From a virus: 22,125 nt of DNA. The position numbers and the translations under genes are program-made. Shown one piece after another: positions 2,417 to 16,485 of this stretch. Every line of letters starts with the position of its first letter. The stretch's first letter is position 1. The notes under the pieces are model-generated. The model saw nothing but the letters and a program-made list of their open reading frames with translations, did no database searches and had not been told where the DNA came from. The stretch is taken from positions 1 to 22,125 of IMG/VR virus record IMGVR_UViG_3300006844_000184, one strand, 5' to 3'.

Positions 2417-3100
2417 ATGCTGGTTATCGTGCCATCCCGCGGTCGACCACACAACGTCGACAAGCTTATTGAGTCGATGATGGCGACTCGCACGGGTAAC
2501 TCATCCCTTCTCGTTGTCGTTGACAGTGACGATACATCACTTAGGCGTTATGAGGAACTCGACTGGCCTAAGTGGGCTCGTCTCGTTATCCAGTCGCCAC
2601 GTCGGATCGGGCCAACGCTCAACGATTTCGCCGTAGCCGCTCCTAGCTTTAATGATCAGGTTGACATCATTGGTTTCATGGGTGATGATCATCGACCACG
2701 TACCGTGGGTTGGGACTCGATCATTGAGCAGGCGATGAAGAATCAAGATGGTACAGGATTCGTCTACGGTAATGATCTTCTTCAGGGTTCGATGCTGCCA
2801 ACCGCGATATTTATCTCATCGAACATCGTCCAGTCACTTGGGTACATGTGCCCTCCTGGGATGCAGCACATGTACCTCGACAACGTGTGGAAACTGTGGG
2901 GTGAGCGGATTCATCGACTCACGTACCTAAACGATGTTATCATCGAACACATGCATCCAGTAGCTCGCAAGGCTGAGTGGGATGACGGTTACGCGATCGT
3001 CAACTCAGGTGAGATGTACCAAAGTGATGAACGACGAATGAATGAGTACATCCTCGAGCAGCTCGAGGAAGATGTCAAAAAGATGAAGGAGTTGCTGTGA
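2417..3100 (+). CDS. Family 2-like GT-A glycosyltransferase (227 aa)
   Basis: The start was placed at the ATG at 2417 because the protein then begins directly with the first beta strand of a GT-A fold (MLVIVPSRGRPHNVDKL). The alternative upstream start overlaps the tail gene by 38 bases and adds an unrelated leader. Acidic residues at ~36-39 (VVDSDD) and the GDDH motif at 89-92 are the expected nucleotide-sugar and metal-binding positions. It is probably a cytoplasmic transferase using a nucleotide-diphospho sugar; donor and acceptor cannot be read from sequence. It is the first of five overlapping genes after the tail genes, which suggests modification of virion proteins or of DNA. Confidence 0.75.
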   Translation: MLVIVPSRGRPHNVDKLIESMMATRTGNSSLLVVVDSDDTSLRRYEELDWPKWARLVIQSPRRIGPTLNDFAVAAPSFNDQVDIIGFMGDDHRPRTVGWDSIIEQAMKNQDGTGFVYGNDLLQGSMLPTAIFISSNIVQSLGYMCPPGMQHMYLDNVWKLWGERIHRLTYLNDVIIEHMHPVARKAEWDDGYAIVNSGEMYQSDERRMNEYILEQLEEDVKKMKELL

Positions 3101-3678
3101 GAATTGAACGAATGAGGGAACGACACTCTCCCGAAATGCTGGCTGAGATCTACGAGAAGCCGCATGATCACACGAAGTTCGAAGATCACCTACTGCGAGT
3201 TGACGCAACGATCGCACTCGCGCGGTGGTTGATTCGAGATATTGAGAAGCCGATCGTAGCGGATCTCTCATGCGGTAACGCGGCAATCCCACGAGCGATT
3301 GTATCGGCGAATGCGTTCGGTGAGGGACGCCTCCTCCTCGGTGACTTCGCTCCGGGGTATCTTCGTCACGGTCCATTGGAAGAGACCATTAACGATATCG
3401 AGCACGTAGATCTGTTCATCTTGTCTGAGACGATCGAACATGTTGACGATCCTACGTTGGTACTCAACGCGATTCGCGTGAAGTCTGATCGTCTCGTGCT
3501 CTCCACGCCGATCGACGAGAAGCTCGAGGATGACAACCGTGAACACTACTGGGCGTGGGATGTTGAGGGTATGGAACATCTGCTTAAGGCAAGCGGATGG
3601 AATCCCGTGACGAAGATAGAGCTAACGTTCACCGACTGGTTCTTCCCATACAACTTTCAGATCTGGGGATGCAAGTGA
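3097..3678 (+). CDS. Class I SAM-dependent methyltransferase (193 aa)
   Basis: The GTG start overlaps the previous stop as GTGA and has an AAGGAG ribosome-binding site at 3086-3091, 5 bases away. The Rossmann-type motif I is VADLSCGNAAIP (residues 54-65), and the motif IV region is LFILSETIEHVDDP (106-119), the pattern of small-molecule and sugar O/N-methyltransferases. An HYWAWDVEGMEHLLKASGW segment (~146-164) matches the usual helix after strand 5. It sits between glycosyltransferases, so a likely job is methylating a sugar, as in capped glycan chains. The substrate is not known from sequence. Confidence 0.75.
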   Translation: MRIERMRERHSPEMLAEIYEKPHDHTKFEDHLLRVDATIALARWLIRDIEKPIVADLSCGNAAIPRAIVSANAFGEGRLLLGDFAPGYLRHGPLEETINDIEHVDLFILSETIEHVDDPTLVLNAIRVKSDRLVLSTPIDEKLEDDNREHYWAWDVEGMEHLLKASGWNPVTKIELTFTDWFFPYNFQIWGCK

Positions 3679-4259
3679 GATTGGTGACAGAGGTGGAGAG
3701 TAACGATATCACTGTCGCGATCCCAACGATTCCAGTAAGACAGACCGAGCTCTTTCGAGCACTCTCCTCGGCGATCGCTGATCAGACACTACCGGCAGAC
3801 GCGGTTTCCATTGCTGTTGATCTTGATCGACGAGGTGCGGCAGTGACTCGTCAGCGTGCGCTCGATGGTGTGAAGACGAAATGGGTTGCGTTTCTCGATG
3901 ACGATGATTACTACTACCCAACCTATCTCGAGACGTGCGCACGACTTGCCGTTGAGAACTTGGCTGATGTTGTCTATACGTGGTTCGACGGGAACAATCC
4001 GTTCCCGATGCACCGTGGAAAGCAGTGGAATCCGGACGATCCACATCACCTGACGATGACGTTGTTCGTTCGTACAGAGCTCGCGAAGGCCGTAGGCTTT
4101 ACAACCAAACATCCAGAGGGTTGGGTCTTGCCTCAGGAGGACTGGCAGTTCATTCTAGGTCTTCGAGACGCCGGTGCTAGGTTCGTTGGAACTGGCGACG
4201 TCCTCTGGCATTACACGGTCAATGGTAAGAACACGTCGGGACGGCCGGACAGATGGTAG
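3669..4259 (+). CDS. Family 2-like GT-A glycosyltransferase, paralogue 1 (196 aa)
   Basis: The start is the ATG at 3669, overlapping the methyltransferase stop by 10 bases. The in-frame GTG at 3675 forms a GTGA overlap with GGGG at a better distance and is an equally plausible start. GT-A features are the first strand ITVAIPTIPVRQTELFRAL, a VTRQRALDGVKTKWVAFLDDDD segment with the DDDD metal-binding motif at 77-80, and a C-terminal EDWQFILGLRDAGARF region followed by WHYTVNGKNTSG. It shares the same layout with the next gene, so the two are tandem duplicates. Donor and acceptor are unknown. Confidence 0.75.
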   Translation: MQVRLVTEVESNDITVAIPTIPVRQTELFRALSSAIADQTLPADAVSIAVDLDRRGAAVTRQRALDGVKTKWVAFLDDDDYYYPTYLETCARLAVENLADVVYTWFDGNNPFPMHRGKQWNPDDPHHLTMTLFVRTELAKAVGFTTKHPEGWVLPQEDWQFILGLRDAGARFVGTGDVLWHYTVNGKNTSGRPDRW

Positions 4260-4852
4260 ATGACGTTACAGTGGTGATTCCGCATCTACCGAATCGTGCA
4301 CTGCTGCTCAACCGTGCGGTGAGTAGTGTCGTCTTTCAGTGGAGGCAGGCCGATGCGATTCACATTGAGACAGCGTGGAGTGGTGAGGATGCCGCGACCG
4401 TGCGAAATCGCGCACTGGCTACCGTTCGCACGAAGTGGATCGCGTGGCTCGACGATGATGATGAGTTTTTACCGCATCATCTTCAGGCATGTATGGACGC
4501 AGCAGAGTCGTCAGGCGCTGATCTCGTGTACCCAGGTATGTGGATCGAGGGTAAGGCAGACCCACTTGCCGTCGCTGTCAACGGACGATGGGTTAATCCC
4601 TTTGGAGTGACGTTTGGTCAAGAGCAGGAGATGCATCTACGTGACTCGGGTAACTTCATTCCCATCACGTATCTGGTGTTGACCGATCTCGTGCGGCAGG
4701 TGGGCGGGTTTCCGCCACCCACCGATAAGGTTCCCGAGGATCACGGTCTTCTCATCCGACTCCTCGATGCAGGAGCGAGATTTCATCACGTACCTGAGCG
4801 AACGTGGCGTTATCACGTGCATGGTGGAAACACAGGTGGAGTCTTAAGGTGA
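4253..4852 (+). CDS. Family 2-like GT-A glycosyltransferase, paralogue 2 (199 aa)
   Basis: The ATG overlaps the preceding TAG (ATGGTAG). The protein begins at the first GT-A strand (DVTVVIPHLPNRALLLNRAV). It has VRNRALATVRTKWIAWLDDDDEF with DDDD at 67-70, a PEDHGLLIRLLDAGARFHHV segment holding the likely acceptor-side acidic residue, and WRYHVHGGNTGG at the end. The two paralogues align along their full length with especially close cores. They may add successive sugars, or act on different acceptors after duplication. There is no membrane segment, so both should act in the cytoplasm on virion protein or DNA. Confidence 0.75.
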   Translation: MVDDVTVVIPHLPNRALLLNRAVSSVVFQWRQADAIHIETAWSGEDAATVRNRALATVRTKWIAWLDDDDEFLPHHLQACMDAAESSGADLVYPGMWIEGKADPLAVAVNGRWVNPFGVTFGQEQEMHLRDSGNFIPITYLVLTDLVRQVGGFPPPTDKVPEDHGLLIRLLDAGARFHHVPERTWRYHVHGGNTGGVLR

Positions 4853-5916
4853 AGATCTACGTCTACCCAGCTGACCGCACTGGATGCGGATACTTTCGTC
4901 TCATCTGGCCGGCGCAGGCACTGCGTGCAAAGGGATACAGCGTTGAGATCATGGATCCTCGCCACCGCGCGTTCAACGCGCTCGTTGACGTTAACACAGA
5001 TAAGGTTCTCGACGTTCAAGTCCCTACCGATGCGGATGTGATCGTACTGCAACGTGTAACGCACCGTCACATCGCTGAGTCGATTCCGTTCATCCGCGCA
5101 AAGGGTGTCGGTGTTGTCGTCGACATCGACGATGATCTCGCAGCGATTCATCCACGTCACCCGGCGTTTGTGAACCTACATCCTCATAAAGATCCACTAA
5201 AGGTTGGAAATAAGAACTCACTGTATCACAACTGGCACAACACAGCACTCGCGTGTCGTGATGCGAGCATCGTTACCTCGTCCAGTCAGGAACTGCACGA
5301 CCGCTACGCAAATCACGGACGTGGCTTCGTGATTCGCAACTACCTCCCTGACTTCTACCTCCAGGTGGCACACGAGGACTCCGACCGAGTTGGTTGGGGT
5401 GGCTCAGTTATGTCGCACCCCGACGACCTGGATGTCCTCGGTAGGTCGGTGAAGCTGCTGATCGGAAGTACCGACCGTGACTTTCACGTGATCGGTCCCG
5501 AGTGGGGAGTCGCCGAGGCGCTCAACATCGACGCGTCACGAGTCGTAGCCACTGGACCGGTCGACATGCATAAGTGGCCCGAGGCGTTGACGAACCTGGG
5601 TATCGGCATCGCACCACTCAGTGACACACGGTTCAACGGTTCGAAGTCGTGGCTTAAGCCACTGGAGTACGCCGGACTCGGTATCCCGTGCGTGATGTCC
5701 CCACGACGTGAGTATCGGGAGATCTCGAAGCACGGGATCGGTATCTCAGCGAGTAAACCGGATCAGTGGTTCAAGAAGTTGAGACAACTCACAACTGATG
5801 ACGTCTACCGACGTGAGCTGGGTTGGCATGCGAGAGAAGTTGCAGCGCAGATGACGATTCCGATTCACGCATATCGCTGGGCAGAGGCGTGGACGTCAGC
5901 TTACGAGCGTCCTTAA
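4849..5916 (+). CDS. GT-B glycosyltransferase (355 aa)
   Basis: The GTG start overlaps the previous stop as GTGA and is preceded by GGTGGAG at 4835-4841, spacing 7. This was preferred to an upstream start that adds 15 residues of overlap. The protein opens with KIYVYPADRTGCGYFRL, a GT-B N-terminal strand with a Gly-rich loop. It has VVVDIDDDLAAIHP in the N-terminal half and, in the C-terminal half, GIAPLSDTRFNGSKSWLKPL followed by EYAGLGIPCVMSP, the donor-binding region of GT4-type enzymes. It is the last gene of the plus-strand operon and ends in a stop shared with the opposing WhiB gene. Substrate unknown. Confidence 0.8.
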   Translation: MKIYVYPADRTGCGYFRLIWPAQALRAKGYSVEIMDPRHRAFNALVDVNTDKVLDVQVPTDADVIVLQRVTHRHIAESIPFIRAKGVGVVVDIDDDLAAIHPRHPAFVNLHPHKDPLKVGNKNSLYHNWHNTALACRDASIVTSSSQELHDRYANHGRGFVIRNYLPDFYLQVAHEDSDRVGWGGSVMSHPDDLDVLGRSVKLLIGSTDRDFHVIGPEWGVAEALNIDASRVVATGPVDMHKWPEALTNLGIGIAPLSDTRFNGSKSWLKPLEYAGLGIPCVMSPRREYREISKHGIGISASKPDQWFKKLRQLTTDDVYRRELGWHAREVAAQMTIPIHAYRWAEAWTSAYERP

Positions 5917-6248
5917 ATCTGCCAAGATAACGCGCAACTCATGCAGATCTCGAGACTTTGCGCTTCCTGGTAGATATCATATCCTCCACAACCAGGACAG
6001 CGAACTCGCTCTCTACGACGAAGAAGGGCGGTACGCTGAAAAACAGTCGTACCGCCCCACGTTCCACTCTCCCCGTGTTTTAACGCCCAGTCGAGACACT
6101 GTCCACTGTGGATGCACATGTTACATATCTTAAGTGCGACTGGATGTGGTTCTCGATCTCTCTTATCGTCACCGTGAAAGAGACCAGGATCTTCATCACG
6201 ACACGCTGCGTGAGGAAAGTTTGGTAACTCATCACGAAGTATCTTCAC
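5913..6248 (-). CDS. WhiB-family Fe-S transcription regulator with C-terminal zinc ribbon
   Basis: This is a GTG start abutting the upstream stop, with AAGGA 7 bases before it. The WhiB cluster cysteines are C16, C42, C45 and C51 (HAACRDEDPGLF; KICNMCIHSGQCLDWAL), followed by the diagnostic GTWGG turn at 62-66. WhiB proteins bind a 4Fe-4S cluster and act with host sigma factor region 4. After a basic segment (LLRRRERVR) there is an extra C84-x2-C87 ... C102-x2-C105 pair that looks like a zinc ribbon, not a usual part of WhiB proteins. The family strongly suggests an actinobacterial host. It probably redirects host transcription or blocks superinfection. The stop overlaps the plus-strand operon's stop. 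Confidence 0.9.
   Translation of the reverse strand: MKILRDELPNFPHAACRDEDPGLFHGDDKRDREPHPVALKICNMCIHSGQCLDWALKHGESGTWGGTTVFQRTALLRRRERVRCPGCGGYDIYQEAQSLEICMSCALSWQI
6026..6057. other. Strong inverted repeat inside the WhiB gene
   Basis: GGGCGGTACG (6026-6035) pairs with CGTACCGCCC (6048-6057). The stem continues as CTG/CAG across an AAAAA loop, with one bulged T at 6047. It encodes the region just after the conserved WGG turn. It lies ~110 bases downstream of the last plus-strand stop, so it could stop or stabilise plus-strand read-through. No U-rich tail follows on the plus strand; on the minus strand it is followed by TTCTTCG. Confidence 0.6.
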
Positions 6249-6638
6249 TTACATATCCTTGGTTCGTAAGTAACGTTCAAGTGACTCCATCGTCGCGGTA
6301 AGCTTGCGCATGTCATCGCCGATCGCAGCCATTGCGTACATCTGTGCGTACTGCGTGTACCACTTATTGGCCTCGATGTGACCCTTGTATGTCGGATCAC
6401 CCACCGTATTTGAGCTACCGAAGCAGTAGATATCAGTCAACGCCGTGACTCGTTCAATGAACTCAGTTGGCTTGGTTCGCCGCATCTTAGGATAACGACT
6501 ATCGATGTCACGCTCGGCGCGTTCACGAATGCTCCGCCTACGTAGAATCGCCAACTCCTCACGACGACGTGCATACGTTAGATACTTGTCGCGAAGTTCG
6601 GCGTTAGTCTTACTGCGATCAACTTCGTAATCTTCCAT
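6249..6638 (-). CDS. Hypothetical phage protein (129 aa)
   Basis: The ATG is preceded by GGAGAA at a normal distance, and the stop abuts the WhiB start. I do not recognise a family. The N-terminal third is strongly basic and helical (residues ~19-50, several Arg/Glu runs such as YARRREELAILRRR), suggesting a coiled coil or nucleic-acid contact. The C-terminus is a predicted amphipathic helix ending in LTATMESLERYLRTKDM. There is no signal peptide or membrane segment. It is co-transcribed with the WhiB gene from the promoter at 6660-6688, so it may act with it. Confidence 0.75.
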   Translation of the reverse strand: MEDYEVDRSKTNAELRDKYLTYARRREELAILRRRSIRERAERDIDSRYPKMRRTKPTEFIERVTALTDIYCFGSSNTVGDPTYKGHIEANKWYTQYAQMYAMAAIGDDMRKLTATMESLERYLRTKDM

Positions 6639-6653
6639 CGTTTCTCCTTCGTA

Positions 6654-6671
6654 AGTCGAATACTATCGACT
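6654..6671. promoter_or_regulatory. Inverted repeat around a -10 box (possible operator)
   Basis: AGTCGA (6654-6659) and TCGACT (6666-6671) are perfect inverted arms. The six bases between them read TAGTAT on the minus strand, which is the -10 box of the predicted promoter for the 129-aa/WhiB unit. A protein bound here would block that promoter. It could also form an RNA hairpin just upstream of the ribosome-binding site if transcription starts further up. Confidence 0.4.
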
Positions 6672-6688
6672 TTGTCATCATTTGGAAA
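6660..6688 (-). promoter_or_regulatory. Predicted promoter of the 129-aa/WhiB unit
   Basis: On the minus strand, TTTCCA (6683-6688) and TAGTAT (6660-6665) are 17 bp apart. The -35 differs by one base from the TTTACA of the two other promoters found in this arm. It lies directly after the terminator at 6696-6717, where a new unit would be expected to begin. The start site would be near 6653, about 15 bases before the 129-aa gene. Confidence 0.45.
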
Positions 6689-6695
6689 CAACGAA

Positions 6696-6717
6696 AGGAG
6701 GCCAAAGTTGACCTCCT
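6696..6717 (-). terminator. Hairpin terminator after the 53-aa ORF
   Basis: AGGAGG (6696-6701) pairs with CCTCCT (6712-6717) around a 10-base loop. Read on the minus strand, the hairpin is followed by TTTCGTTGTTTCC, a T-rich tail. It lies 20 bases past the stop of the 53-aa ORF. The plus-strand AGGAGG resembles a ribosome-binding site, but no plus-strand gene follows it. Confidence 0.55.
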
Positions 6718-6736
6718 CACGTCACTGGAACGAGTC

Positions 6737-6898
6737 TTACCGAATGTTCTCGTTCCGATCGCCCGAGTCGGCGTTACGCATCGCGTTGACGACGCTGTCC
6801 GGTTCATCATCGTCAATCACAACAAGTTCCATGTCGTCGTCTACCTGCGGGGCTTGGTTACGATCTCGGTTTTCACGCTCACGATCACGTTCAATCAT
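6737..6898 (-). CDS. Small acidic protein (53 aa)
   Basis: The ATG at 6898 has GGAGAA at 4-base spacing and sits behind the best promoter in the window, with a terminator after its stop. That punctuation argues for a real gene despite its size. The first 15 residues are charged (MIERDRERENRDRNQ). The middle is very acidic and hydrophobic (VDDDMELVVIDDDEPDSVV) and the end is polar. No family is recognised. Acidic small phage proteins often mimic DNA or bind host regulators; that is only a possibility here. Confidence 0.65.
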   Translation of the reverse strand: MIERDRERENRDRNQAPQVDDDMELVVIDDDEPDSVVNAMRNADSGDRNENIR

Positions 6899-6932
6899 TG
6901 TTTTCTCCTTGGTAGCTCCCTTCAGCCAACTG

Positions 6933-6948
6933 TATAAGGCTGCTTATA
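6933..6948. promoter_or_regulatory. Inverted repeat at the predicted start site (possible operator)
   Basis: TATAAG (6933-6938) and CTTATA (6943-6948) are perfect inverted arms separated by four bases. The predicted transcription start of the 53-aa ORF falls at about 6947, so the repeat spans roughly +1 to +15. That is a typical operator position for a repressor or for an autoregulatory product. Confidence 0.45.
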
Positions 6949-6953
6949 ACAAT

Positions 6954-6982
6954 ATTATATCAAGATTAAGTTGAAGTGTAAA
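6954..6982 (-). promoter_or_regulatory. Strong sigma-70-type promoter
   Basis: On the minus strand, TTTACA (6977-6982, 5 of 6 consensus) and a perfect TATAAT (6954-6959) are separated by exactly 17 bp. The surrounding sequence is AT-rich compared with the rest of the window. The -35 box begins at the tail of the preceding terminator. It drives the 53-aa ORF. Confidence 0.7.
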
Positions 6983-7019
6983 CAAATCACGTCCCGTTCT
7001 GCGACGGGACGTGATTTGT
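6982..7019 (-). terminator. Strong rho-independent terminator after the DUF932 gene
   Basis: A perfect 16-bp stem pairs 6982-6997 with 7004-7019 around the 6-base loop TCTGCG. On the minus strand it is followed by TTACACTT, continuing the T-rich end of the stem. It lies 8 bases beyond the DUF932 stop and separates that unit from the next promoter. The stem is symmetrical, so it would also act in the opposite direction. Confidence 0.85.
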
Positions 7020-7026
7020 GCGTCGA

Positions 7027-8001
7027 TCAGAGACGAGTCAGGATGTGCGCCGCGGTTTTATTAATCGCAGCGTGAGTCTGCCCTTGAAGTGCGGCGACGA
7101 ATCGTGACTCTGGTGAACCGCCAGTGCGACCCCACTCGAAGTAATCCGAGACGGCGTTGACCAATCCCCATCCAGTACCTGCGTATCCTACGTATGGCGA
7201 CGTATTGAATCGCTGGATTATGTTGTCGATCACCTCGGTGGTCTTAGGACGTTTAAGAAGAATCTTAGTGAGTACGAGTTTTGCCTGCTCGTTGTTCACC
7301 TTTTTTGCCGCTAGCTTCTCGACGAGTGCGTTGAAGTGTGTTGCGTAGTCTCCGATCTTTTTCAGTGATGTCAACGCCTCGGAGAGTTTCGCCTGCATCG
7401 TTGACGTATGTTTCACAGTCCAGCGATGTTGCACACCCGCGTTGAATGAACGAAGTGTCATCTGATTCATGCACTTACTGCGAAGTGGCATGACCATCAG
7501 CTCAACGGCGCGAGTGAGGTCGTGCGACGTGCGAAGTACGACGAACAGGTCGTGTGGATCGCCGCCATCGAGCACGTTCAACTTCACGTTGTTTGGTGCG
7601 CGAACGACCATGAATCCTTGCTTGCCACCCTTGAGGGCACCCGCCGCGACGTACTCTGGATTCACCTGGTCCATGAAGTCGAATGCCTCGTGATACTGCA
7701 GGACCGGATAGCCACTGGAAACGATCGCGAGTGGTTCGTTGGTGTCCGTGCGGACGACTGCGCGACGATTGGTAATCTCGTCATGAAAATCAAGAGCACC
7801 TTCAGTCTCAACTTCGGGTGTACCAAAATACACCTTTCGCAGCTCTACCGTAAAGTCAAGACCACCGTGTTTCGCCGCATCCTTCGCAGTCAGTGCGGTT
7901 TCGGTCAGCTTGCCGAGTTTCATCCACGGAACCTCACGTGCCGTGAACTGGACGTTCTGCCCGCCCTCAGAGATCTCCGTTGCCGGAGTCTTCGTAACCA
8001 T
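7027..8001 (-). CDS. DUF932 (phage/plasmid-like) protein (324 aa)
   Basis: The start was set at the second of two adjacent ATGs (8001), because the strong AAGGAGG at 8006-8012 is 4 bases from it and only 1 from the other. The longer open frame upstream runs through tRNA sequence. The protein carries the DUF932 pattern: the REVPWMKLGKLTE N-terminal segment, LAIVSSGYPVLQYHEAFDFM, RTSHDLTRAVELMVMPLRSKCMNQM and a C-terminal GTGWGLVNAVSDYFEWGR. DUF932 proteins are common in actinophages and plasmids; their biochemical role is not settled, though some links to DNA metabolism are suggested. It is the last gene of the tRNA-containing transcription unit. Confidence 0.85.
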   Translation of the reverse strand: MVTKTPATEISEGGQNVQFTAREVPWMKLGKLTETALTAKDAAKHGGLDFTVELRKVYFGTPEVETEGALDFHDEITNRRAVVRTDTNEPLAIVSSGYPVLQYHEAFDFMDQVNPEYVAAGALKGGKQGFMVVRAPNNVKLNVLDGGDPHDLFVVLRTSHDLTRAVELMVMPLRSKCMNQMTLRSFNAGVQHRWTVKHTSTMQAKLSEALTSLKKIGDYATHFNALVEKLAAKKVNNEQAKLVLTKILLKRPKTTEVIDNIIQRFNTSPYVGYAGTGWGLVNAVSDYFEWGRTGGSPESRFVAALQGQTHAAINKTAAHILTRL

Positions 8002-8031
8002 CATTCCTCCTTCGTTGTAGCATTGTGCTAC

Positions 8032-8095
8032 GCGGCGTACGAGGCATCGAACCTCGACGTGCAGGCTTTCACACGTTACCACCATTACGCCCCGC
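8032..8095 (-). ncRNA. tRNA-like structure without a D stem (possible decayed tRNA)
   Basis: Acceptor-like arms GGCGTA (8086-8091) and TACGCC (8034-8039) pair 6 of 6. A perfect T-arm (CGAGG, loop TTCGATG, CCTCG; 8040-8056) joins the acceptor directly, as in a tRNA. An anticodon-like hairpin ACGTGT/GCACGT (8057-8062 with 8071-8076) has an 8-base loop with no U33. Only nine bases replace the D arm and there is no variable loop. It starts immediately at the 3' end of tRNA-Glu. It is either a degenerate tRNA or a tRNA-like processing element. Confidence 0.4.
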
Positions 8096-8165
8096 AGTCT
8101 CGATGGGAATCGAACCCACAACTCCTGCTTGAGAGGCAGGTGAGTTGCCCTTACTCTACGAGACC
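8095..8165 (-). tRNA. tRNA-Glu (anticodon CTC)
   Basis: This is a complete cloverleaf on the minus strand. The acceptor is GGTCTCG/CGAGACT (first pair G-U), then TA at positions 8-9. The D stem is GAGT/ACTC with a 7-base loop. The anticodon stem is CCTGC/GCAGG with loop CTCTCAA, giving anticodon CTC (8131-8133) for GAG codons. It has a 4-base variable loop and a T arm GTGGG-TTCGATT-CCCAT. The 3' CCA is not encoded. It lies in the leader between two protein genes and is probably processed from the mRNA. Confidence 0.85.
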
Positions 8166-8168
8166 TTG

Positions 8169-8202
8169 GTGGGATACGCTCCCACGGGCGTCTTACTCTA
8201 CG
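8169..8202 (-). pseudogene. tRNA fragment: T-arm-like hairpin plus duplicated 5' segment
   Basis: The 11-base plus-strand sequence CTTACTCTACG occurs at 8150-8160 (in the D-arm side of tRNA-Glu) and again at 8192-8202. Between the second copy and tRNA-Glu is a T-arm-like 5-7-5 hairpin, GTGGG (8169-8173) with CCCAC (8181-8185). This looks like a deleted copy of a neighbouring tRNA retaining D-arm and T-arm pieces. The second copy supplies the last codons and stop of the adjacent 64-aa gene. Confidence 0.4.
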
Positions 8203-8387: not shown

Positions 8388-8397
8388 CATTACTCCT

Positions 8398-8670: not shown

Positions 8671-8700
8671 TGTCTCTCCTTCATCGTTGTTCGTTGGGAG

Positions 8701-8774
8701 CCTCGATCCGAGGAGTCGAACCTCGGTCCTCCGGGCCGCATGCCCGGTGTGCCGTTACCGTCACACTCATCGAG
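8701..8774 (-). tRNA. Non-canonical tRNA-like cloverleaf (anticodon position reads TGC)
   Basis: Four stems are in tRNA order: acceptor CTCGAT/ATCGAG (8769-8774 with 8702-8707), D-like arm GTGTG/CACAC (8747-8751, 8762-8766) whose loop contains GGTAAC, anticodon-like arm CCGGG/CCCGG with loop CATGCGG, a 4-base variable loop and a T arm CCGAGG-TTCGACT-CCTCGG (8708-8726). The anticodon position would read TGC (Ala), but base 33 is A instead of T, positions 8-9 are GA instead of TA, and the acceptor has only six pairs. Function is therefore uncertain. Confidence 0.45.
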
Positions 8775-8881
8775 CGACTAGGATTCCCGCCTAGCCTAAC
8801 CATCCGGTTCTCACCAAGATCGAGGGGAATCCGACTTCCGCCGGCTCAGTTATGGCTCCCGGTTCGTTACCTTATGAGATA
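8775..8881 (-). other. Block of further tRNA-like hairpins
   Basis: This stretch has no ORF with a ribosome-binding site. It contains a T-arm-like 5-7-5 hairpin (CTAGG 8778-8782 with CCTAG 8790-8794), a second weaker hairpin (GGAA 8826-8829 with TTCC 8836-8839) and another D-loop-like GGTAAC (minus strand, 8866-8871). ATCGAGG at 8819-8825 can pair 7 of 7 with CCTCGAT at 8701-8707, competing with the acceptor of the neighbouring cloverleaf. I could not fold a standard tRNA from it. It may be decayed tRNA genes or a structured leader RNA. Confidence 0.4.
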
Positions 8882-10109: not shown

Positions 10110-10114
10110 GTCGC

Positions 10115-11020
10115 TTAACTGTCTTCTGCTCGCTGCGCGCCCTCGAAGGCAGCCTGCTCAGTCTCCTCGAAGGTGAGACCACCGGATCCATCCTGGGCGC
10201 CCTCACGAGCTGCCTGCTTGATCTCTTCAATGTTTGCGTCAGCCAGCTCGACCTGCTCCGGCGTGGTGATGTCCTCACCCCACATGTAGAGCTTACCCGA
10301 TGGTACCGATAGGATTGTTCCGTTAGCCCAAACCTTCATTGTTCCGTTGGTGGCTTGAGTGCGGTAATCATTCAGATCGTCGGTGTCAACGAGTCGACGT
10401 CGAGTTTGCTTGTTCTCCGAAGCCCAAACGATACCGGACGTGTCACTTACCAGAAAGATCATGTCATCATCTCCGTCTGATCCTGTGAGAACTTCGAACA
10501 ACCCACTGTGATTCCAACGCACACGAGAGCGCCAGAATGAGATATGCCAGTGTTCAAGATGCGATGAGTCAAATGGACTCTGGATGGCACCACCGTCGCA
10601 GCGGAATCGAACCACGTTTACACCGTCGAAGGTACCGGCAAACTCGCGACATTGTTGGATTCGAGGATCATACTTCTTTGCCGCAGTGTACATACGATTG
10701 GTGCCGTCGATCATTCGCTGATTGTTCTCGGTAGATCCCCACTGATGCGGAGTCATGTCACACGCAGAGCAGTCGTTCCAACTCATGTTGACGGTATCGA
10801 GTGTGTTCTGGATGGAGTAGTCACCCGAGCCACTTGCTCCTGGGACGTTAACGAGTGTGTTGCGAGAGCGATGATAGCCGGATAGATGATTTTCATCACC
10901 CTTGATGCCAAAGTTCGAGCTACCGACACCGTAGTGAGCTTTTAGCAGATTTCCGAGATCGATCACCGTTGGTGGCTGAACCTCAGCCACAACGATTGGG
11001 TCACTCATATTGAGTGGCAT
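10115..11020 (-). CDS. Putative endolysin, M15-like metallopeptidase (301 aa)
   Basis: The ATG has AGGAGG at 4-base spacing. The putative zinc site is spread as in M15 D-Ala-D-Ala carboxypeptidase-type enzymes: GYHRSR (H50), SGDYS (D67) and HLEHWHISF with E156 and H159. These would cleave peptide cross-links in host peptidoglycan. Residues ~170-245 form a second, Trp-containing beta region that may bind the wall. The C-terminal ~50 residues are a charged helix (ELADANIEEIKQAAREGAQ). There is no signal peptide, so export would need a holin, consistent with four small genes downstream. The family call rests on the spacing and the EHWH motif. Confidence 0.6.
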   Translation of the reverse strand: MPLNMSDPIVVAEVQPPTVIDLGNLLKAHYGVGSSNFGIKGDENHLSGYHRSRNTLVNVPGASGSGDYSIQNTLDTVNMSWNDCSACDMTPHQWGSTENNQRMIDGTNRMYTAAKKYDPRIQQCREFAGTFDGVNVVRFRCDGGAIQSPFDSSHLEHWHISFWRSRVRWNHSGLFEVLTGSDGDDDMIFLVSDTSGIVWASENKQTRRRLVDTDDLNDYRTQATNGTMKVWANGTILSVPSGKLYMWGEDITTPEQVELADANIEEIKQAAREGAQDGSGGLTFEETEQAAFEGAQRAEDS

Positions 11021-11076
11021 GACACCTCCTCACTGGACTCTATGATGATTGTACAGCGATTCTCGTTAACACGACA

Positions 11077-11108
11077 CCGGGAGACCGACCTTTTGAGTCG
11101 ATCTCCCG
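11077..11108 (-). terminator. Hairpin between the methyltransferase and lysis genes
   Basis: GGGAGACCGAC (11079-11089) pairs with GTCGATCTCCC (11097-11107); one pair is G-U in the minus-strand RNA. The stem can extend by two pairs and the loop contains AAAAG on the minus strand. It lies ~18 bases after the methyltransferase stop. The downstream sequence (GTCGTGTTAACG) is not T-rich, so termination may be incomplete. Confidence 0.5.
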
Positions 11109-11125
11109 AAGACGTGTTGTCGCTA

Positions 11126-11434
11126 CTAAGCGATCGCCTCGGCCGGTGCCTCCACCGGCGCGGTACCCGGCAACCAGACGTACGACTTCTGCGCGCCATC
11201 CGCGCCACGAACCTTGTAGATCCGATTCGTCACGCGTAGACGATACAGCGACAAGTAAGCCTTGTTCGGCGGGACATCGATCGCTGCGGCAAGCGCTTCC
11301 TTCGTGAGTGGCGTACCGGTATCAGCCGCCGCTACGATCGCCGCGAAGGCGCGCTCATCCTGCTCGATCGTTGCCTGCGGACGCGGTCGGCCGGCGTTGA
11401 TCTTTTCGGTTGCCTCGGCAACGGGTTCCGTCAT
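11126..11434 (-). other. Possible internally initiated HTH protein (102 aa)
   Basis: This is in frame inside the methyltransferase ORF. ATG at 11434 is preceded by AAGGAG at 11444-11449 with 9-base spacing, unusually good for an internal codon. The product (MTEPVAEATEKINAGRPRP...) begins at a natural domain edge and has an AT-hook-like GRPRPQ followed by a helix-turn-helix of the TPLTKEALAAAIDVPPNKAY type. Stand-alone small HTH proteins with this layout are common in actinophages. Either two ancestral genes fused by stop loss, or both the long and short forms are made. Confidence 0.4.
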
Positions 11435-12730
11435 TATGAACTTCTCCTTCACTTGATGTGATGTTACCGGCGGATGTCCGAGCAGTTTACGGTACTTCCG
11501 CTCAGGTGTCAGGTTTGATTGTATCAAGTTTGAGTCGTACCAGTGGGTTCCATCGATGAGAAACTCTCGATCACCGATCTTGCTGCCCGCGTAGGAACCT
11601 GGAGATCCATCGAGAGCATCACGGATCCAACCACCGATCCAGCTACCGCAGTCTACCGTAATTCCCTTACCCCAGGTCATCTGAAGGCCACTAACATCCT
11701 TGAGCGGAGCGATCCGCCAGTCATCCGGGAAACCCATGATGCGGGCTACCTCACGGTGTGTTAGAGTGCGCGGTAGATGGGGATGCACAGTGGTGTAGAG
11801 TGACCCACCGGTGATCACTCGTGAGTATCGGTCTCCAGCCCAACGAACTGGAGTCGTGAATCCCATACTGAAGTTACTCCTGATGATCTTTTGCTCAGTT
11901 GCCACCCATGAATCGGGCAGTCGGCCGTGGGATTGATGGTAACGCTTGGCAACCGTAGCAATGCTTTCGCCTGCGTTCCATATCGTTCCACAAAGGAGGT
12001 CACGAATACGTCGAGTGATCGGATTGTCGATGCTACGGTTCCCGTCCACGCAGCCGATCGCGGATCGACGGCTAGCTGCCCACCAAGACGGTTCTTGATC
12101 ATACGGAACCAGTTCCCAGGACTCCGGGAGAGTTGCAAGATCGCCGATGACCTCATCAAGCACCGGCACCCGGGCTGGAGCCACTCTCTCAACGCCGAAC
12201 GGAACACGGCTGAGAACGAAGAAGTATCTCCGTCGCATCGATGAACCTCCAACCGCCAGCGCGTTGTGGAGGACGTGGTAAAGGTTGTATCGTTCATTCG
12301 TCAGTTCCTCAATCCGATTCCGAAGTCTTCGCATGAGGTCGAGTCCGTCGGGGCGGGTAAACGCCATCTGTACCGACTCAAAGACAGCAACCTGAGGAAG
12401 GCAACGAGCTGTGAACTCGATAAACGCCCACATACAGTGATTGATCTTGGAGTCAGCCCCGCGAAACTCCTTGCTTGACATGACACTGAATCCCGAGCAG
12501 GGAGGATTACCGAACACGACGTCAACCCCACCCACTGGAACCGTCCAGTGAGCTGGGTCACAGGACTCTGCCTGCCATCCATCTCCAAGAAGGTGACGGT
12601 TAGCCTCGCAGTTTGCGACACCGAACCCGCCCTTCATTTCTCGCTTACCGACAAGTTGAAAGCCGGCGGCCACCATTCCCATGGTGAAACCGCCGGCGAA
12701 TCCTAGACAGTCTACGGCGCGATATGTCAC
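11126..12730 (-). CDS. C5-cytosine DNA methyltransferase with C-terminal HTH domain (534 aa)
   Basis: C5-MTase motifs occur in order: motif I FAGGFTMGM (11-19), motif IV GNPPCSGFS with nucleophile C78, motif VI FESV (118-121, where ENV is usual), motif VIII RRRYFFVLS, motif IX HLPRTLTHREVARIMGFP and motif X GKGITVDCGSWIGGW (~354-368). It transfers a methyl group from SAM to C5 of cytosine. The family normally ends near residue 375. Here ~160 more residues follow, including GRPRPQ (AT-hook-like) and a winged-helix-like segment (TKEALAAAIDVPPNKAYLSL). An internal ATG with its own AAGGAG lies at 11434. The GTG start has no clear ribosome-binding site. Roles could be self-protection from restriction or the first step of base hypermodification. 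Confidence 0.85.
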   Translation of the reverse strand: MTYRAVDCLGFAGGFTMGMVAAGFQLVGKREMKGGFGVANCEANRHLLGDGWQAESCDPAHWTVPVGGVDVVFGNPPCSGFSVMSSKEFRGADSKINHCMWAFIEFTARCLPQVAVFESVQMAFTRPDGLDLMRRLRNRIEELTNERYNLYHVLHNALAVGGSSMRRRYFFVLSRVPFGVERVAPARVPVLDEVIGDLATLPESWELVPYDQEPSWWAASRRSAIGCVDGNRSIDNPITRRIRDLLCGTIWNAGESIATVAKRYHQSHGRLPDSWVATEQKIIRSNFSMGFTTPVRWAGDRYSRVITGGSLYTTVHPHLPRTLTHREVARIMGFPDDWRIAPLKDVSGLQMTWGKGITVDCGSWIGGWIRDALDGSPGSYAGSKIGDREFLIDGTHWYDSNLIQSNLTPERKYRKLLGHPPVTSHQVKEKFIMTEPVAEATEKINAGRPRPQATIEQDERAFAAIVAAADTGTPLTKEALAAAIDVPPNKAYLSLYRLRVTNRIYKVRGADGAQKSYVWLPGTAPVEAPAEAIA

Positions 12731-12742
12731 CGTTCGACTGTA

Positions 12743-13204
12743 TTAGGCTGACGCACAGACGAACTGATTCCAGGTGTCATTTGAGCGTGTGCACTTCACA
12801 TCAGGATCGTCGAGTGCACGTCCACATCCTGGACACTTTGAAGACACGCCGTCGTACTTGCCAATGCGATCATAGTTGATGGTGTGCTTACGATACAGTT
12901 CAGTTTCGAGTCTCGCTGCGAGCTTATCACCCGTCTCTCCAGTTACGACCATCATCAGGTTCGTCAAGAACTGCCAGGTATCTCGCAGCTCGCCAAACGC
13001 CGCATCAGTGTTGATGTGCCGTGATGTTGCCCACGGCTTCCAACCAACCTCGTTGAGGAACTCGCCGATCTCCAACTGAAGCGCGAGTACCTGGTCTTTG
13101 ATGTATGTGATGCGCTGCTCTGACGTCATCTCGGTGATGTTATTACCGAGTGTTACCTGGAGCTTGTGTTGCGCGTTAATCATGTCTGCGAGTCGATCCA
13201 TCAT
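12743..13204 (-). CDS. dUTPase-like MazG-superfamily pyrophosphatase with zinc ribbon (153 aa)
   Basis: The ATG shares its A with the previous stop (TAATG), with GGAAGGA upstream; a second ATG follows directly. The all-alpha NTP-pyrophosphatase signature is ALQLEIGEFLNEVGWKPW, then AFGELRDTWQFLTNLM, matching the paired E-x2-E and E-x2-D metal-binding helices of dimeric dUTPases. It would hydrolyse dUTP or a related dNTP, limiting uracil in DNA or shaping the nucleotide pool. The C-terminus adds cysteines C124, C127, C138 and C150 (CPGCGRALDD...), probably a zinc ribbon, not a standard part of the enzyme. It sits just upstream of the C5-methyltransferase, linking it to DNA metabolism. Confidence 0.75.
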   Translation of the reverse strand: MMDRLADMINAQHKLQVTLGNNITEMTSEQRITYIKDQVLALQLEIGEFLNEVGWKPWATSRHINTDAAFGELRDTWQFLTNLMMVVTGETGDKLAARLETELYRKHTINYDRIGKYDGVSSKCPGCGRALDDPDVKCTRSNDTWNQFVCASA

Positions 13205-14100
13205 TAAATCCTTCCCTTGAGTGCACGTGCGACACCCTCAAAGATGTCAATCGTAGGTGTGTGATATGCGAGCATCCGTGTTGGGTCGCCGACACGATTG
13301 AGTACGCCCATTGGCTTCGATAGGTCGTGATCAATATGTGGCTCATAATCAACGACATCCGCGACTAGATGTGCGAGGTTCCACATCGTTGTCGCGACGC
13401 CTGTGCAGAGATTGACGGGCAACTCGATGCCATCCTCGATGATGTTCATCATAGCAATCATGATGTCATCTACGTGGATGAAGTCACGTCGCTGATTCAT
13501 CGTACCCCAGATCGTAAACGGATCCGTACGATCGAGTGCGCGCTGAATGAACGCCGGGAATGGATACGCAAGATCTTGATCCTCACCATATCCAGAGAAT
13601 GGTCGCAGTACTGTGATCTTAACGCCACACTCACGTGCCGCCTCTGCCATCTTCTCACCATATAGCTTTGCCTCACCATATCGCCCATCTGGTTGATCGG
13701 GAGCATGGAAGTCGATGTCACTCTCTCGTAGGCGATAGTTATCGAGTGTTGCTTGAAGATGAGTGGGATATGCCGCACTGGATGAGAAGTAGACGACGTG
13801 CGGTTGCCTCGTTCGCACCGCCCACTCGAAGAGGTTCGCATCAAGCTGTGCGTTGAGATGCAGGTTCGCCGGCTTACCGTCGATCTCAACGCGGCCACCA
13901 ACGTGATACGCCGCGTGAACTACGAGATCGTATCGCTTACCATTCGTTTGAAAGACGAAGTTAGCGTCACGGTACCATGGGTCCAAGTCGTCGTACTTAA
14001 TGTCGCACATGTCGACGTTCCATCCAAGCGTGTCGAGATGTACGACTGTGTGACGACCAATGAACCCGGCGGAACCGGTGACGAGTGCCGTCTTAACCAT
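13204..14100 (-). CDS. NAD-dependent nucleotide-sugar epimerase/dehydratase (298 aa)
   Basis: The ATG has GGAG at 7-base spacing and overlaps the previous stop by 8 bases. It is an extended short-chain dehydrogenase: TGSAGFIG (8-15) is the NAD(P)-binding Gly motif, VVHAAYHVGG the strand-4 motif, YFSSSAAYP the catalytic Ser region and GRYGEAK the YxxxK pair. RPFSGYG and RRDFIHVDD are substrate-side motifs typical of UDP/GDP-sugar epimerases and fucose-synthase-like enzymes. It would convert a nucleotide sugar in the cytoplasm, probably supplying a donor for the transferases encoded beside it. The exact sugar cannot be told from sequence. Confidence 0.85.
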   Translation of the reverse strand: MVKTALVTGSAGFIGRHTVVHLDTLGWNVDMCDIKYDDLDPWYRDANFVFQTNGKRYDLVVHAAYHVGGRVEIDGKPANLHLNAQLDANLFEWAVRTRQPHVVYFSSSAAYPTHLQATLDNYRLRESDIDFHAPDQPDGRYGEAKLYGEKMAEAARECGVKITVLRPFSGYGEDQDLAYPFPAFIQRALDRTDPFTIWGTMNQRRDFIHVDDIMIAMMNIIEDGIELPVNLCTGVATTMWNLAHLVADVVDYEPHIDHDLSKPMGVLNRVGDPTRMLAYHTPTIDIFEGVARALKGRI

Positions 14101-15463
14101 AGATCCGCTCCTCGATCATTTTAAGGTATCGCTTCTCACGTAGCGCGTTATCGAAGTGCTCACGCTGCTTACGAATGAGCCACGTGAACGTTGTGGCAGA
14201 TGCGTTAACCGCCGCGACGCGGTCTTGCAGATCCTTCGGGGTGTCGCAGCGAAGCCATGTTTTAAGTCCCGGATCTGCGTCACGGAGGATGTTGTTCTGA
14301 TCATCATATTCAGGATGGAAGAAGCAGACCGTCCCGCCGGCGAACGCCTCCCACGGCTTCGCGGTTGCCCAACCGGAACCACTGGACGGTGTGGTGAAGG
14401 TGCAGCGCACGGAGTGTAGCTTGGGATAGTACTGGTCCCACGGGGCAGGCTTGATGTGTGCCCACTTGCCGTCGTAGATGGCGAGCTTTGCGCGTGACAC
14501 GTCGCTCCACGTGCCGTGGATGAAGTACGGGTTGAGTGGCATGACCCACTCAGTCATCACGTTCACACGCTTCCGACGCTCGTTGACGCCGATCGCGCGT
14601 GCCTCGTTGACGAACATTCCAAACTTGCCGGGACGATCGAAGTTATCATTCCACTGGATGAGGTTGCCAAAGGGTGTCCCGGGAGCGAGACCGTTGATCT
14701 CCAGTCGTGAGTATACGTTTTGCACACCGGCGGTCCACACACTCGCATCGTCCGTGTAACCGAGGTTTTGATGCGTCTTGTAGTCAACGTCTCGCATCTT
14801 CTCGAAGAACGACTTAAATTCTTCCTTGTCGTTCCCGTCGTAACGCTCATGCTTGATGCGATGCCAGAAGTTGTACTGTGTCAACACCGGATGACGAAGC
14901 GGCCACTTCAAGTCGCGCATCTTCATGTAGTTACGTGCGTCCGCGTTGAGATAGATCTCCTCGCGCGTGAATGGATTCTTGTCCCGCCACTCGTTGATAC
15001 CCTGCAGGATGAACGACACGTAGTACGTACACCAGTCGTGGGGCTTGGTGAGCACGTCACGGTTGCCGACCTTGGGAATCGGCATGTTCGTCGAGCCGTG
15101 CTGACCAAGCCAGATGACGTACGCATCCATCTCGAGCATGCGATCACGGGTGATCTCAGCAGTGATCTCGTTCGCCTTGAGGTGTTCCTCGACGGTGAGA
15201 TTGGCGTGATTGAGGTTGGCGGCATTCAGCTGCTGTCGCAGCTTGGGTCCCCATATGATCCATGGGTTGATGATGTTCTTCGGCATGCCGACGTGATTTG
15301 GGTACTCGCCGGTGTTGCGTCCGATGAGGTAGAAGTGATCATCGGGATGACGAAGCGCGAGTTCCTTGACTACCGCGACCATCTCAACGTCTCCGCCGAG
15401 ATTGCCACACTTATCCAGTGTGAGCGGCATCGAGCGACCGATCTTACCATAACCGATCTTCAT
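14093..15463 (-). CDS. GT-B-type glycosyltransferase (456 aa)
   Basis: The ATG overlaps the previous stop as ATGA. The N-terminus (MKIGYGKIGRSMPL) and LGGDVEMVAVVKELALRHPD resemble the first GT-B Rossmann strand and helix. HFYLIGRNTGEYP follows. Near the C-terminus SGSGWATAKPWEAFAGGTVC and FFHPEYDDQ match the donor-binding helix region of GT-B phage transferases. A long middle section (residues ~110-300) is unlike common families and rich in Trp, Tyr and Asn. It lies between the epimerase and the RGP-like gene, forming a three-gene sugar module. The acceptor is unknown; virion protein or DNA are both possible. Confidence 0.75.
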   Translation of the reverse strand: MKIGYGKIGRSMPLTLDKCGNLGGDVEMVAVVKELALRHPDDHFYLIGRNTGEYPNHVGMPKNIINPWIIWGPKLRQQLNAANLNHANLTVEEHLKANEITAEITRDRMLEMDAYVIWLGQHGSTNMPIPKVGNRDVLTKPHDWCTYYVSFILQGINEWRDKNPFTREEIYLNADARNYMKMRDLKWPLRHPVLTQYNFWHRIKHERYDGNDKEEFKSFFEKMRDVDYKTHQNLGYTDDASVWTAGVQNVYSRLEINGLAPGTPFGNLIQWNDNFDRPGKFGMFVNEARAIGVNERRKRVNVMTEWVMPLNPYFIHGTWSDVSRAKLAIYDGKWAHIKPAPWDQYYPKLHSVRCTFTTPSSGSGWATAKPWEAFAGGTVCFFHPEYDDQNNILRDADPGLKTWLRCDTPKDLQDRVAAVNASATTFTWLIRKQREHFDNALREKRYLKMIEERIYG

Positions 15464-16485
15464 ACGACGTTCGCCCTCATGAGATCAGCCACCCACAGTC
15501 CGAGTGATGCACGCGTCTGCGTCGGCATAAAGTCGAGTTTATGGATCGCTGCAAAGCAGCGATCAAGCGCCTGGATGATAGTGGCGCATCCGTTGAGATC
15601 AACTTCCTTGAGCGCGGCAACGAACTCGTCGGTGAACGTCATACCGAACATCTCATGTGAGAGATCTACGATAACATCATGTTCATTGCGAGTCTGTCGC
15701 ACGGCTGGGTTGCCGTAGTACACCGATAGATTGAAGTGATCCATTACTCGACGTGCGAGATAACTTGCCCAGATGTCATCATAGCGTCCGATACCTGGGA
15801 ACATGAACATTAGCGGCGCGACATCATAGCGGTACACGGTTGCCTGTGAGTTGAATGGTGCCCAGACACCAGGAGGCGTGATCGTATCAAACTCAACATC
15901 GTTCACGGTGGGGTTGAGTACCATTCGCTCGATGGCGTCTATGTCGGGATCACCTACCCACAACATAGCTCCCACCGCGATGTCGACGTCAAAGCGTTGT
16001 GCGTAGTCGGGATCGATGTCAGCGTGACGTTGTGAGAGTGGGAAACCGCGGTGCGTCACGTTTGGAGTACATGCACTACCTGGGTTGTACCACTCAACCC
16101 CGGTAACGATGTCGGTATCTCCGGGAGTCTCCATCACGTTGATCATCCGTGTGATCTGATCGTCGGTCATTGGTTCGTTGTCGTCATCGATGGTAATAAT
16201 GTGATCAGGACGAAGTTTAAGTGCCTCGAGAAGACCGATGTTGCGACGTTGAATTGTGTTCCATCCAAGAACATCCGAGATACTCCAGTGTGTCTGCTGA
16301 TCTGGAGCCATATACCGCGTGTTGATACCGTCCGTACCTGTGATGTCTCGGAGAACGTTGATCACGTCTTGATGTGGTGTCTTCTGGTCCCCAATGACGA
16401 TGATGTGATCTTCTTCGTCGAGTCCTATGGACCATCCCTTGAGAACAGTTGGGACGTTAATCGTAGTCGTAATAAGCACCTTCAC
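15460..16485 (-). CDS. RGP/STELLO-like GT-A protein (341 aa)
   Basis: The start was set at GTG 16485, which has AGGAG at 16493-16497 with 7-base spacing; the longer frame lacks such a site and runs through a hairpin. The first strand is KVLITTTINVPTV, and the metal motif is ITIDDDNEP with DDDN at 100-103. The later segment FNSQATVYRYDVAPLMFMFP then GIGRYDDIWASYLARRV resembles reversibly glycosylated polypeptides (UDP-arabinose mutases, GT75) and STELLO proteins. Such enzymes interconvert or transfer pentose-type sugars. Finding it with an epimerase suggests that an unusual donor sugar is made. Assignment is at fold and motif level only. Confidence 0.7.
   Translation of the reverse strand: MKVLITTTINVPTVLKGWSIGLDEEDHIIVIGDQKTPHQDVINVLRDITGTDGINTRYMAPDQQTHWSISDVLGWNTIQRRNIGLLEALKLRPDHIITIDDDNEPMTDDQITRMINVMETPGDTDIVTGVEWYNPGSACTPNVTHRGFPLSQRHADIDPDYAQRFDVDIAVGAMLWVGDPDIDAIERMVLNPTVNDVEFDTITPPGVWAPFNSQATVYRYDVAPLMFMFPGIGRYDDIWASYLARRVMDHFNLSVYYGNPAVRQTRNEHDVIVDLSHEMFGMTFTDEFVAALKEVDLNGCATIIQALDRCFAAIHKLDFMPTQTRASLGLWVADLMRANVV

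Follow-up and report, generated by a model that had tools for sequence, protein, structure and literature searches.

A putative T4-like system for the glycosylation of hydroxymethylcytosine in the DNA of actinobacteriophages

A set of genes on the minus strand of a viral contig is quite probably part of a post-replicative, T4-like system that glycosylates 5-hydroxymethylcytosine (hmC) in the DNA of an actinobacteriophage. This reading draws on sequence and fold, i.e., on a gene for a dCMP-type enzyme of the thymidylate synthase (TS) family in related phages, on a glycosyltransferase (GT) with a fold resembling that of the T4 β-glucosyltransferase (BGT), and on the lack of matches to TET oxygenases above the cut-off. 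The stretch of DNA analyzed, here called the window, comprises 22,125 bp, and the remainder of the genome was approached via relatives only. A nucleotide search with the whole window against phages gave no match.

The minus-strand module and its conservation

All genes named in the earlier note are present, and their coordinates and gene content stand; its count of six transferases, divided between two modules with one on each strand, is correct. On the minus strand, a GK-type homologue of C5-cytosine methyltransferases (C5-MTases) of 534 amino acids (11126..12730; PF00145, E 2.1e-21) is accompanied by a nucleotide pyrophosphohydrolase of the MazG/dUTPase_2 family with a Cys-rich C-terminal tail (12743..13204; PF08761, E 8e-11). 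The latter protein also matches phrog_18650 (E 1e-26) and the dUTPase structure 1w2y in the PDB (E 9e-6), and, judged by these matches, it may be a dCTP/dUTP pyrophosphatase. The module further includes an NAD-dependent sugar epimerase/reductase (13204..14100; PF01370, E 2.4e-32), whose top NCBIfam match is GDP-L-fucose synthase (NF047922) at 95 bits, well under the cut-off of 500, a 456-amino-acid GT-B glycosyltransferase recognized as BGT-like from its predicted structure (14093..15463), and a GT-A protein of the RGP family (GT75-like, UDP-arabinopyranose-mutase family; 15460..16545; PF03214, E 1.7e-9). An alignment showed the IDDDN motif to be conserved in this RGP-like protein, which is proposed to be a sugar-donor mutase or a second glycosyltransferase. 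Upstream of the module, also on the minus strand, lies a replication block (16575..22125) with genes for SSB-like and Sak4/RecA-like proteins, a PD-(D/E)XK exonuclease, an SNF2-type helicase, a small gene, and genes for a RuvC-like protein and the C-terminus of DNA polymerase A, the latter gene being cut by the contig end. The order within this block is identical in relatives.

The minus-strand block was seen with the same gene order in approximately 80 viral contigs, and such recurrence shows that the set did not come together by chance. The recurrent order is RecA-SSB-GT(s)-(epimerase)-MazG-C5. Of 72 loci, 70 have a MazG/dUTPase-like gene no more than 3 kb upstream of the C5-MTase-like gene. 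A candidate GT-type family lies within 6 kb of the latter gene in every one of the 59 viral loci that extend far enough upstream; the loci are related by descent, and the counts do not represent independent events. Among isolates, the module is carried by Micrococcus phage Kurnik, Actinomycetia phage DSL-LC01, and Gordonia phages Forza, GMA2, and GodonK. In the Gordonia and Micrococcus phages, the annotations of its genes do not go beyond methyltransferase, glycosyltransferase, thymidylate synthase, or hypothetical protein. In the reverse test, anchored on the TS gene, the GK C5 protein was also encoded in 28 of 31 long contigs. One TS-positive contig of 127 kb contains a GT-like gene and MazG without GK C5, which is, therefore, not essential to the module. 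In other lineages of the module, the BGT-like gene is replaced by GT-type families without homology detectable with HHalign; in this comparison, families K_8525, F_8101, and G_9664 grouped together and D_6911 and D_9067 apart from them, and neither grouping was joined to the BGT-like family.

Candidate enzymes for the synthesis and glycosylation of hydroxymethylcytosine

An Asp at the position of Asn177 of Escherichia coli TS is diagnostic of dCMP as the substrate. This Asp was present in all 26 readable copies of the TS-family gene (PF00303) from the relatives. The best match of the family profile in the PDB was the CMP 5-hydroxymethylase MilA (E 6.5e-38), and ordinary TS has Asn in the same column. 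Each of the 19 contigs that extend 12.3 kb or more beyond the C5 gene on its upstream side carries the TS-family gene, at a distance of 10.3-14.9 kb upstream; contig G002 also has an upstream PF00303 gene, and five complete genomes, i.e., of Gordonia, Micrococcus, and Actinomycetia phages, each encode one somewhere. Its product in the relatives is, by sequence, a candidate nucleotide-level dCMP hydroxymethylase, although the Asp at position 177 is equally compatible with a dCMP methylase, as in 5mC formation of the Xp12 type. The gene is not inside the window, as the contig stops before the expected place; the virus's own hydroxymethylase gene presumably lies just beyond the contig end, next to genes for a kinase and a dCMP deaminase.

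The 456-amino-acid GT-B protein gave no match in Pfam, PHROG, or NCBIfam, and a tblastn search with it found no phage record. When its AlphaFold2 model (pLDDT 86) was compared with the PDB using Foldseek, the top six matches were all T4 BGT, with E values down to 5.7e-11. Alignment of the model with VIA-align resulted in a Z score of 22.8 for T4 BGT vs. 18.8 for the best non-BGT structure, whilst sequence identity to T4 BGT is only 12%. The model suggests that the protein could be an hmC-DNA glycosyltransferase, although a fold like that of BGT does not prove that DNA is the acceptor.

In the pathway that we infer from these genes and models, including the dCTPase activity, the presence of hmC in the DNA, and the identity of the sugar, the pyrophosphohydrolase would convert dCTP to dCMP, from which the TS-family hydroxymethylase would produce 5-hydroxymethyl-dCMP. 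After phosphorylation, this nucleotide would be incorporated into DNA, where the BGT-like enzyme, aided by the RGP-like protein and the epimerase, would attach a sugar to hmC.

The GK homologue of C5-methyltransferases

The GK homologue consists of an MTase domain (residues 1-377), which could be aligned to solved C5-MTases, and a C-terminal extension that is predicted to be helical and to contain a β-hairpin region (about residues 438-521), possibly a winged helix. The fold of its model (pLDDT 88) matches those of DNMT1 (Z 31.1) and CmoX (8yf3; Z 24.1). Catalytic motifs IV (PC), VI (Glu), and VIII (RxR) are kept in all 84 full-length members of the clade, each of which has the catalytic Cys and Glu and both Arg residues, and these motifs and the fold place the protein in the C5-MTase superfamily (PF00145). 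In contrast, the residues binding the adenosine moiety of SAM are lost. As controls, 41 ordinary C5-MTases were taken from usable loci of a search of 84,980 bacterial and archaeal genomes for the GK clade, which itself yielded only apparent distant ordinary C5-MTases with approximately 20-30% identity over long matches. The position of Phe18, occupied in all 41 controls by the Phe that stacks on SAM, is never Phe in the 84 GK members, and that of Gly20 in motif I is always Leu, Phe, or Tyr (Gly in 39 of the 41 controls). Lys355 takes the place of the Asn of motif X (Asn304 in HhaI) in 84/84 members, with Asn in 34/41 controls, and a Trp is fixed in motif III. Also in the diverged members found through the TS gene, the Lys was kept in those checked by profile alignment. 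By this residue-based prediction, the clade does not have the make-up of a SAM-competent C5-MTase; because the adenosine-binding residues are lost, the GK homologue is unlikely to be an ordinary methylase, and it is probably SAM-independent.

Tentatively, and with less confidence than for the pathway described above, the GK clade may be considered a new class of DNA enzymes with a C5-MTase fold that has given up SAM. The Cys would most likely still attack C6 of a flipped-out cytosine or hmC, whilst the altered site for the adenosine of SAM and the Lys beside C5 would lead to other chemistry at the C5 substituent, such as exchange or coupling of the 5-hydroxymethyl group of hmC in DNA via the Cys-C6 adduct, after which the hypermodified cytosine would be glycosylated. 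Less likely still, the enzyme would be an ordinary C5-methylase that uses SAM despite drift in its cofactor site and that shields residual cytosines or host DNA. The invariant catalytic residues and the overall fold would agree with such a function, but the cofactor site is replaced so uniformly, i.e., at Phe18 and Gly20, with Lys for Asn and a fixed Trp in motif III, that it looks like the result of selection rather than drift.

It is improbable that the GK enzyme is a CmoX-like carboxymethyltransferase, which would use carboxy-SAM (Cx-SAM) to produce 5-carboxymethylcytosine with its Lys in the role of Arg350 of CmoX or Lys374 of M.MpeI. The substitution N374K lets M.MpeI accept Cx-SAM, and Arg350 of CmoX binds the carboxymethyl group (PMC12783734). 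The invariant Lys of the GK clade is located at exactly this position, and, although not the Arg found in CmoX, it is chemically similar. However, CmoX keeps the Phe, Glu, and Asp contacts with adenosine, which the GK clade does not, and its fold is no nearer to that of the GK homologue than are the folds of ordinary enzymes, for which Z reaches 31. Moreover, no CmoA (TIGR00740) was found in 42 related records including those of five complete phages, in a search in which E. coli scored positive as a control and the actinobacterium Corynebacterium glutamicum gave no match.

Alternative routes and comparison with known systems

We give similarly little credence to the idea that the minus-strand GTs have the cell surface or virion proteins as their targets, with an incidental linkage to replication genes. 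RGP-like proteins and epimerases are common in surface-sugar clusters, and the nearest isolate relative of the RGP-like protein is found in a sugar cluster of a Synechococcus phage. However, the position of the GTs between SSB and MazG-C5 is conserved across lineages, BGT is the top fold match, and a dCMP-type TS gene is present in every sufficiently long relative. For the plus-strand cluster (2417..5916), which lies downstream of tail genes as the earlier note had stated, virion glycosylation is neither supported nor excluded. It encodes a GT (2417-3100; phrog_14945, E 2e-54), a weakly recognized class-I SAM methyltransferase (3097-3678; only Methyltransf_23, E 0.016, below the cut-off), two GT2 proteins (3597-4259 and 4253-4852; PF00535, E 3e-9 and 5e-9, respectively), and a GT-B protein (4849-5916; PF13692, E 3e-7). 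The nearest isolate relative of the first GT is encoded among replication genes of Streptomyces phage Belfort, and similar GT clusters adjoin the module in six relatives.

A TET pathway is known in phages, and the C5-MTase fold adjoins GTs here, but a route in which the C5 enzyme produces 5mC, an off-window TET enzyme converts it to 5hmC, and the GTs add the sugar is the least probable of all, as the GK enzyme is devoid of the SAM-pocket residues, the TS-family dCMP enzyme fills the role, and the suggested search of the rest of the genome for TET/JBP (PF12851), run on 44 related records with five complete genomes, gave nothing over the cut-off, whilst no control genome matched either. Three contigs with sub-cut-off matches of 13 bits encode, as judged by eye, 2OG oxygenases of the prolyl-hydroxylase type. 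Of the earlier proposal, the idea that the minus-strand set hypermodifies DNA has good support from the linkage, the BGT-like fold, and the dCMP-type TS gene in relatives; the succession of C5-MTase, TET, and glycosylation is not upheld.

These results point to hmC-based DNA glycosylation in actinobacterial phages, including cultured Gordonia and Micrococcus phages. A literature search, which included Kurnik, HY126, and Gordonia hydroxymethylase, found no paper reporting such glycosylation in actinobacterial phages. If true, it is expected to guard the phages from restriction and possibly from CRISPR. With a Lys at the cofactor-respecifying position, the GK homologue is a candidate for catalyzing a new reaction at C5 in DNA, which is testable in isolates.

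The hmC glucosylation system of T4, with the dCMP hydroxymethylase gp42, the dCTPase-dUTPase gp56, and AGT/BGT, resembles the system proposed here in the dCMP-type TS-family enzyme and the kinase of the relatives, the MazG/dUTPase-family pyrophosphohydrolase, and the GT-B enzyme with BGT as its nearest fold. Here, however, another phage lineage and host group are concerned, and there are extra sugar enzymes and the GK homologue, of which we know no counterpart in T4. Shewanella phage Thanatos, which has sugar-modified C (pentosyl-cytosine), likewise combines a dCTP pyrophosphatase, a dCMP deaminase, a dCMP-HMase/TS, and a GT, but its sugar genes differ and the cited portions of the paper report no C5-MTase homologue (PMC12838424). 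Phage RB69, with arabinosyl-hmC, would resemble the proposed system in combining hmC with a non-glucose sugar and phage-encoded sugar genes, whereas a C5-MTase homologue is not mentioned in the corresponding parts of that report (PMC6024577). The CmoX/CmoA/CmoY system for 5-carboxymethylcytosine of phage S-B43 (PMC12783734) does include a C5-MTase homologue with a basic residue at the Asn of motif X. This residue is Lys rather than Arg in the GK clade, which has lost the SAM-adenosine pocket residues that CmoX keeps, and, instead of CmoA, the related records contain GTs and the dCMP-type TS gene.

Gene content and conservation of the module

The six transferases named in the earlier note are real open reading frames of real families, four on the plus strand (2417-3100, phrog_14945; 3597-4259 and 4253-4852, both PF00535; 4849-5916, PF13692) and two on the minus strand. 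The latter are an RGP transferase (15460-16545, PF03214) and GT-B456 (14093-15463), a 456-residue protein without a family match, which was assigned via structure. The epimerase, the dUTPase_2/MazG protein and the C5-methyltransferase (C5-MTase) homologue were likewise recovered, while the plus-strand SAM methyltransferase has a match, but a weak one (E 0.016). Two neighboring genes similar to the latter are present in a related locus (L023:18949-20107, minus). Several related contigs encode relatives of the transferases at 4849-5916 or 3597-4259 past the C5 gene, on the opposite strand. Among isolates, relatives of the plus-strand transferases were found in Streptomyces and Arthrobacter phages and a small number of others; in Streptomyces phage Belfort, a relative of the first one sits among replication genes. 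Virion glycosylation is a candidate role for the plus-strand set.

A WhiB regulator gene (5913-6248, minus) supports an actinobacterial host. The minus strand also carries genes for tRNA-Glu(ctc) (8094-8165) and tRNA-Ala(tgc) (8700-8774) and, between the lysis region and the glycosyltransferase (GT) clusters, for a DUF932 protein (7027-8121; PF06067, E 2e-31). A similar protein is encoded downstream of the C5 gene in the related locus L003.

Relatives of the C5 protein (11126-12730, minus; the GK clade) were found by tblastn in Micrococcus phage Kurnik, Actinomycetia phage DSL-LC01 and Gordonia phages (33-39% identity), and in every one of these phages inspected, a MazG/dUTPase gene and GT-type genes adjoin the C5 gene. 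Scanning IMG/VR with the clade alignment yielded 80 loci. Among those with enough sequence, a MazG gene lies at most 3 kb upstream of C5 in 70 of 72, and a member of the module's candidate GT families is found no more than 6 kb away in every case (59 of 59), several of these families being GTs by position or phage-record annotation only. In L304 (G068) and L308 (G064), the C5 match scores well but appears to contain one stop (TAG and TGA, respectively). Related loci have the order RecA-SSB-GT(s)-[epimerase]-MazG-C5 in common. The GT part differs by lineage, with GT-B456 and RGP in the window, D_6911/D_9067 with UDP-galactopyranose mutase in DSL-LC01, and other families in Gordonia phages and Kurnik; such exchange would be expected if the sugars differ. 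Near the module of DSL-LC01, a gene annotated as tryptophan halogenase and collagen-like genes adjoin a glycosyltransferase (L007:15848-21317, minus).

Proposed source of the hydroxyl

The TET route to the hydroxyl considered in the earlier note was not borne out: 44 related records contained no TET/JBP match above the cut-off, and a thymidylate-synthase (TS)-family gene (PF00303) was found instead. Because no control genome gave a TET match, this absence is moderate evidence. Below the cut-off, 13-bit TET_JBP matches occur on three contigs (G017, G018 and G026; loci L120-L124), where the proteins, judged by eye, look like prolyl-hydroxylase-type 2OG-Fe oxygenases. Two of these contigs carry more than one phage-encoded 2OG-Fe oxygenase-like protein each.

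The PF00303 gene is present in all 19 contigs that extend 12.3 kb or more upstream of C5, and also in contig G002 and five complete phages. In the reverse test, 28 of the 31 long contigs retrieved through the TS-type gene encoded the GK C5 protein. All 26 TS-type copies read have Asp at the position of E. coli TS Asn177, where the ordinary TS enzymes aligned have Asn; Asp at this position marks dCMP-type enzymes, as in T4 gp42 and in N-to-D mutants of TS. Among solved structures, the closest is that of MilA, a CMP 5-hydroxymethylase (E 6.5e-38). Aligned to a solved TS, the L003 protein lacks a Trp in the Trp80 region, and absence of this Trp favored hydroxymethyl over methyl in mutant work; the L003 sequence favors a hydroxymethyl rather than a methyl product. 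Genes for a kinase, the TS-type enzyme and a dCMP deaminase, then polA, follow one another in this order in both L003 and DSL-LC01. Since the window's contig stops within polA, the TS-type gene of this virus is predicted to lie just outside. The 127-kb contig G054 (L247:8964-20069) encodes a kinase, a dCMP-type TS, a dCMP deaminase, polA, a GT-like protein and MazG, and no GK C5 gene was found on it, making it a natural comparison for the contribution of the C5 enzyme to the module.

The C5-methyltransferase homologue

The model of the GK C5 protein (pLDDT 88) has a C5-MTase fold (Z 31.1 to DNMT1, 28.2 to HaeIII, about 25 to HhaI and 24.1 to CmoX). The C-terminal extension (residues about 438-525), with predicted helices and a β-hairpin, is possibly a winged helix and may aid DNA binding; it is missing in several homologues, e.g., that of L003. 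Residue counts cover 84 full-length members and, aligned to the clade, 41 ordinary C5-MTases, in a register corroborated by PDB alignments. The motif IV Cys, motif VI Glu and both motif VIII Arg are invariant (84/84). At the position of HhaI Phe18, the clade has Asn, Gln, Met, Leu or His and never Phe (0/84; 41/41 in ordinary enzymes), at Gly20 it has Leu, Phe or Tyr (Gly in 39/41), the ribose-binding acid is retained in only 22/84 (41/41), and a motif III Trp is fixed (84/84). In motif X, all 84 members carry Lys at the Asn304 position (Asn in 34/41 and Lys in 0/41 ordinary enzymes), as do diverged members retrieved via the TS-type gene. By sequence, the clade thus keeps its catalytic residues, whereas its SAM-adenosine contacts have been exchanged throughout, in part for bulky side chains.

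Ordinary C5-MTases have activity toward 5-hydroxymethylcytosine (hmC) at its C5 substituent, in the form of dehydroxymethylation and covalent adducts (PMC11347137), which makes a dedicated enzyme for hmC chemically plausible. SAM-independent chemistry on the C5 substituent of hmC is, tentatively, what the GK enzyme might perform; ordinary methylation seems rather unlikely. Carboxymethylation is more doubtful still: the Lys sits where Arg350 of CmoX binds the carboxymethyl group and where the Lys of engineered M.MpeI N374K, which accepts carboxy-SAM, is found (PMC12783734), but CmoX keeps the adenosine-contact residues that the GK clade lacks, and no CmoA partners of the clade were found in the related records searched. 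On these two grounds, classification of the enzyme as CmoX was set aside. Part of the probability goes to none of these three reactions.

The glycosyltransferase and known systems

A model of GT-B456 built from an 18-sequence alignment (pLDDT 86) had T4 β-glucosyltransferase as all of its best six Foldseek matches in the PDB (E down to 5.7e-11). VIA-align gave Z 22.8 to this enzyme (rmsd 4.0-4.2, 321 aligned), 18.8 to the next family and about 16 to AGT. Its proposed acceptor, hmC in DNA, and its sugar are inferred. The RGP-like protein and the epimerase, together with the galactopyranose mutase of DSL-LC01, point speculatively to an unusual sugar, perhaps a furanose.

A search of open-access literature, with few subscription papers or preprints, found no report of hmC or the GK clade in Gordonia or Micrococcus phages. 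The closest published systems are T4, RB69 with its arabinosyl-hmC (PMC6024577), Thanatos (PMC12838424) and CmoX (PMC12783734).
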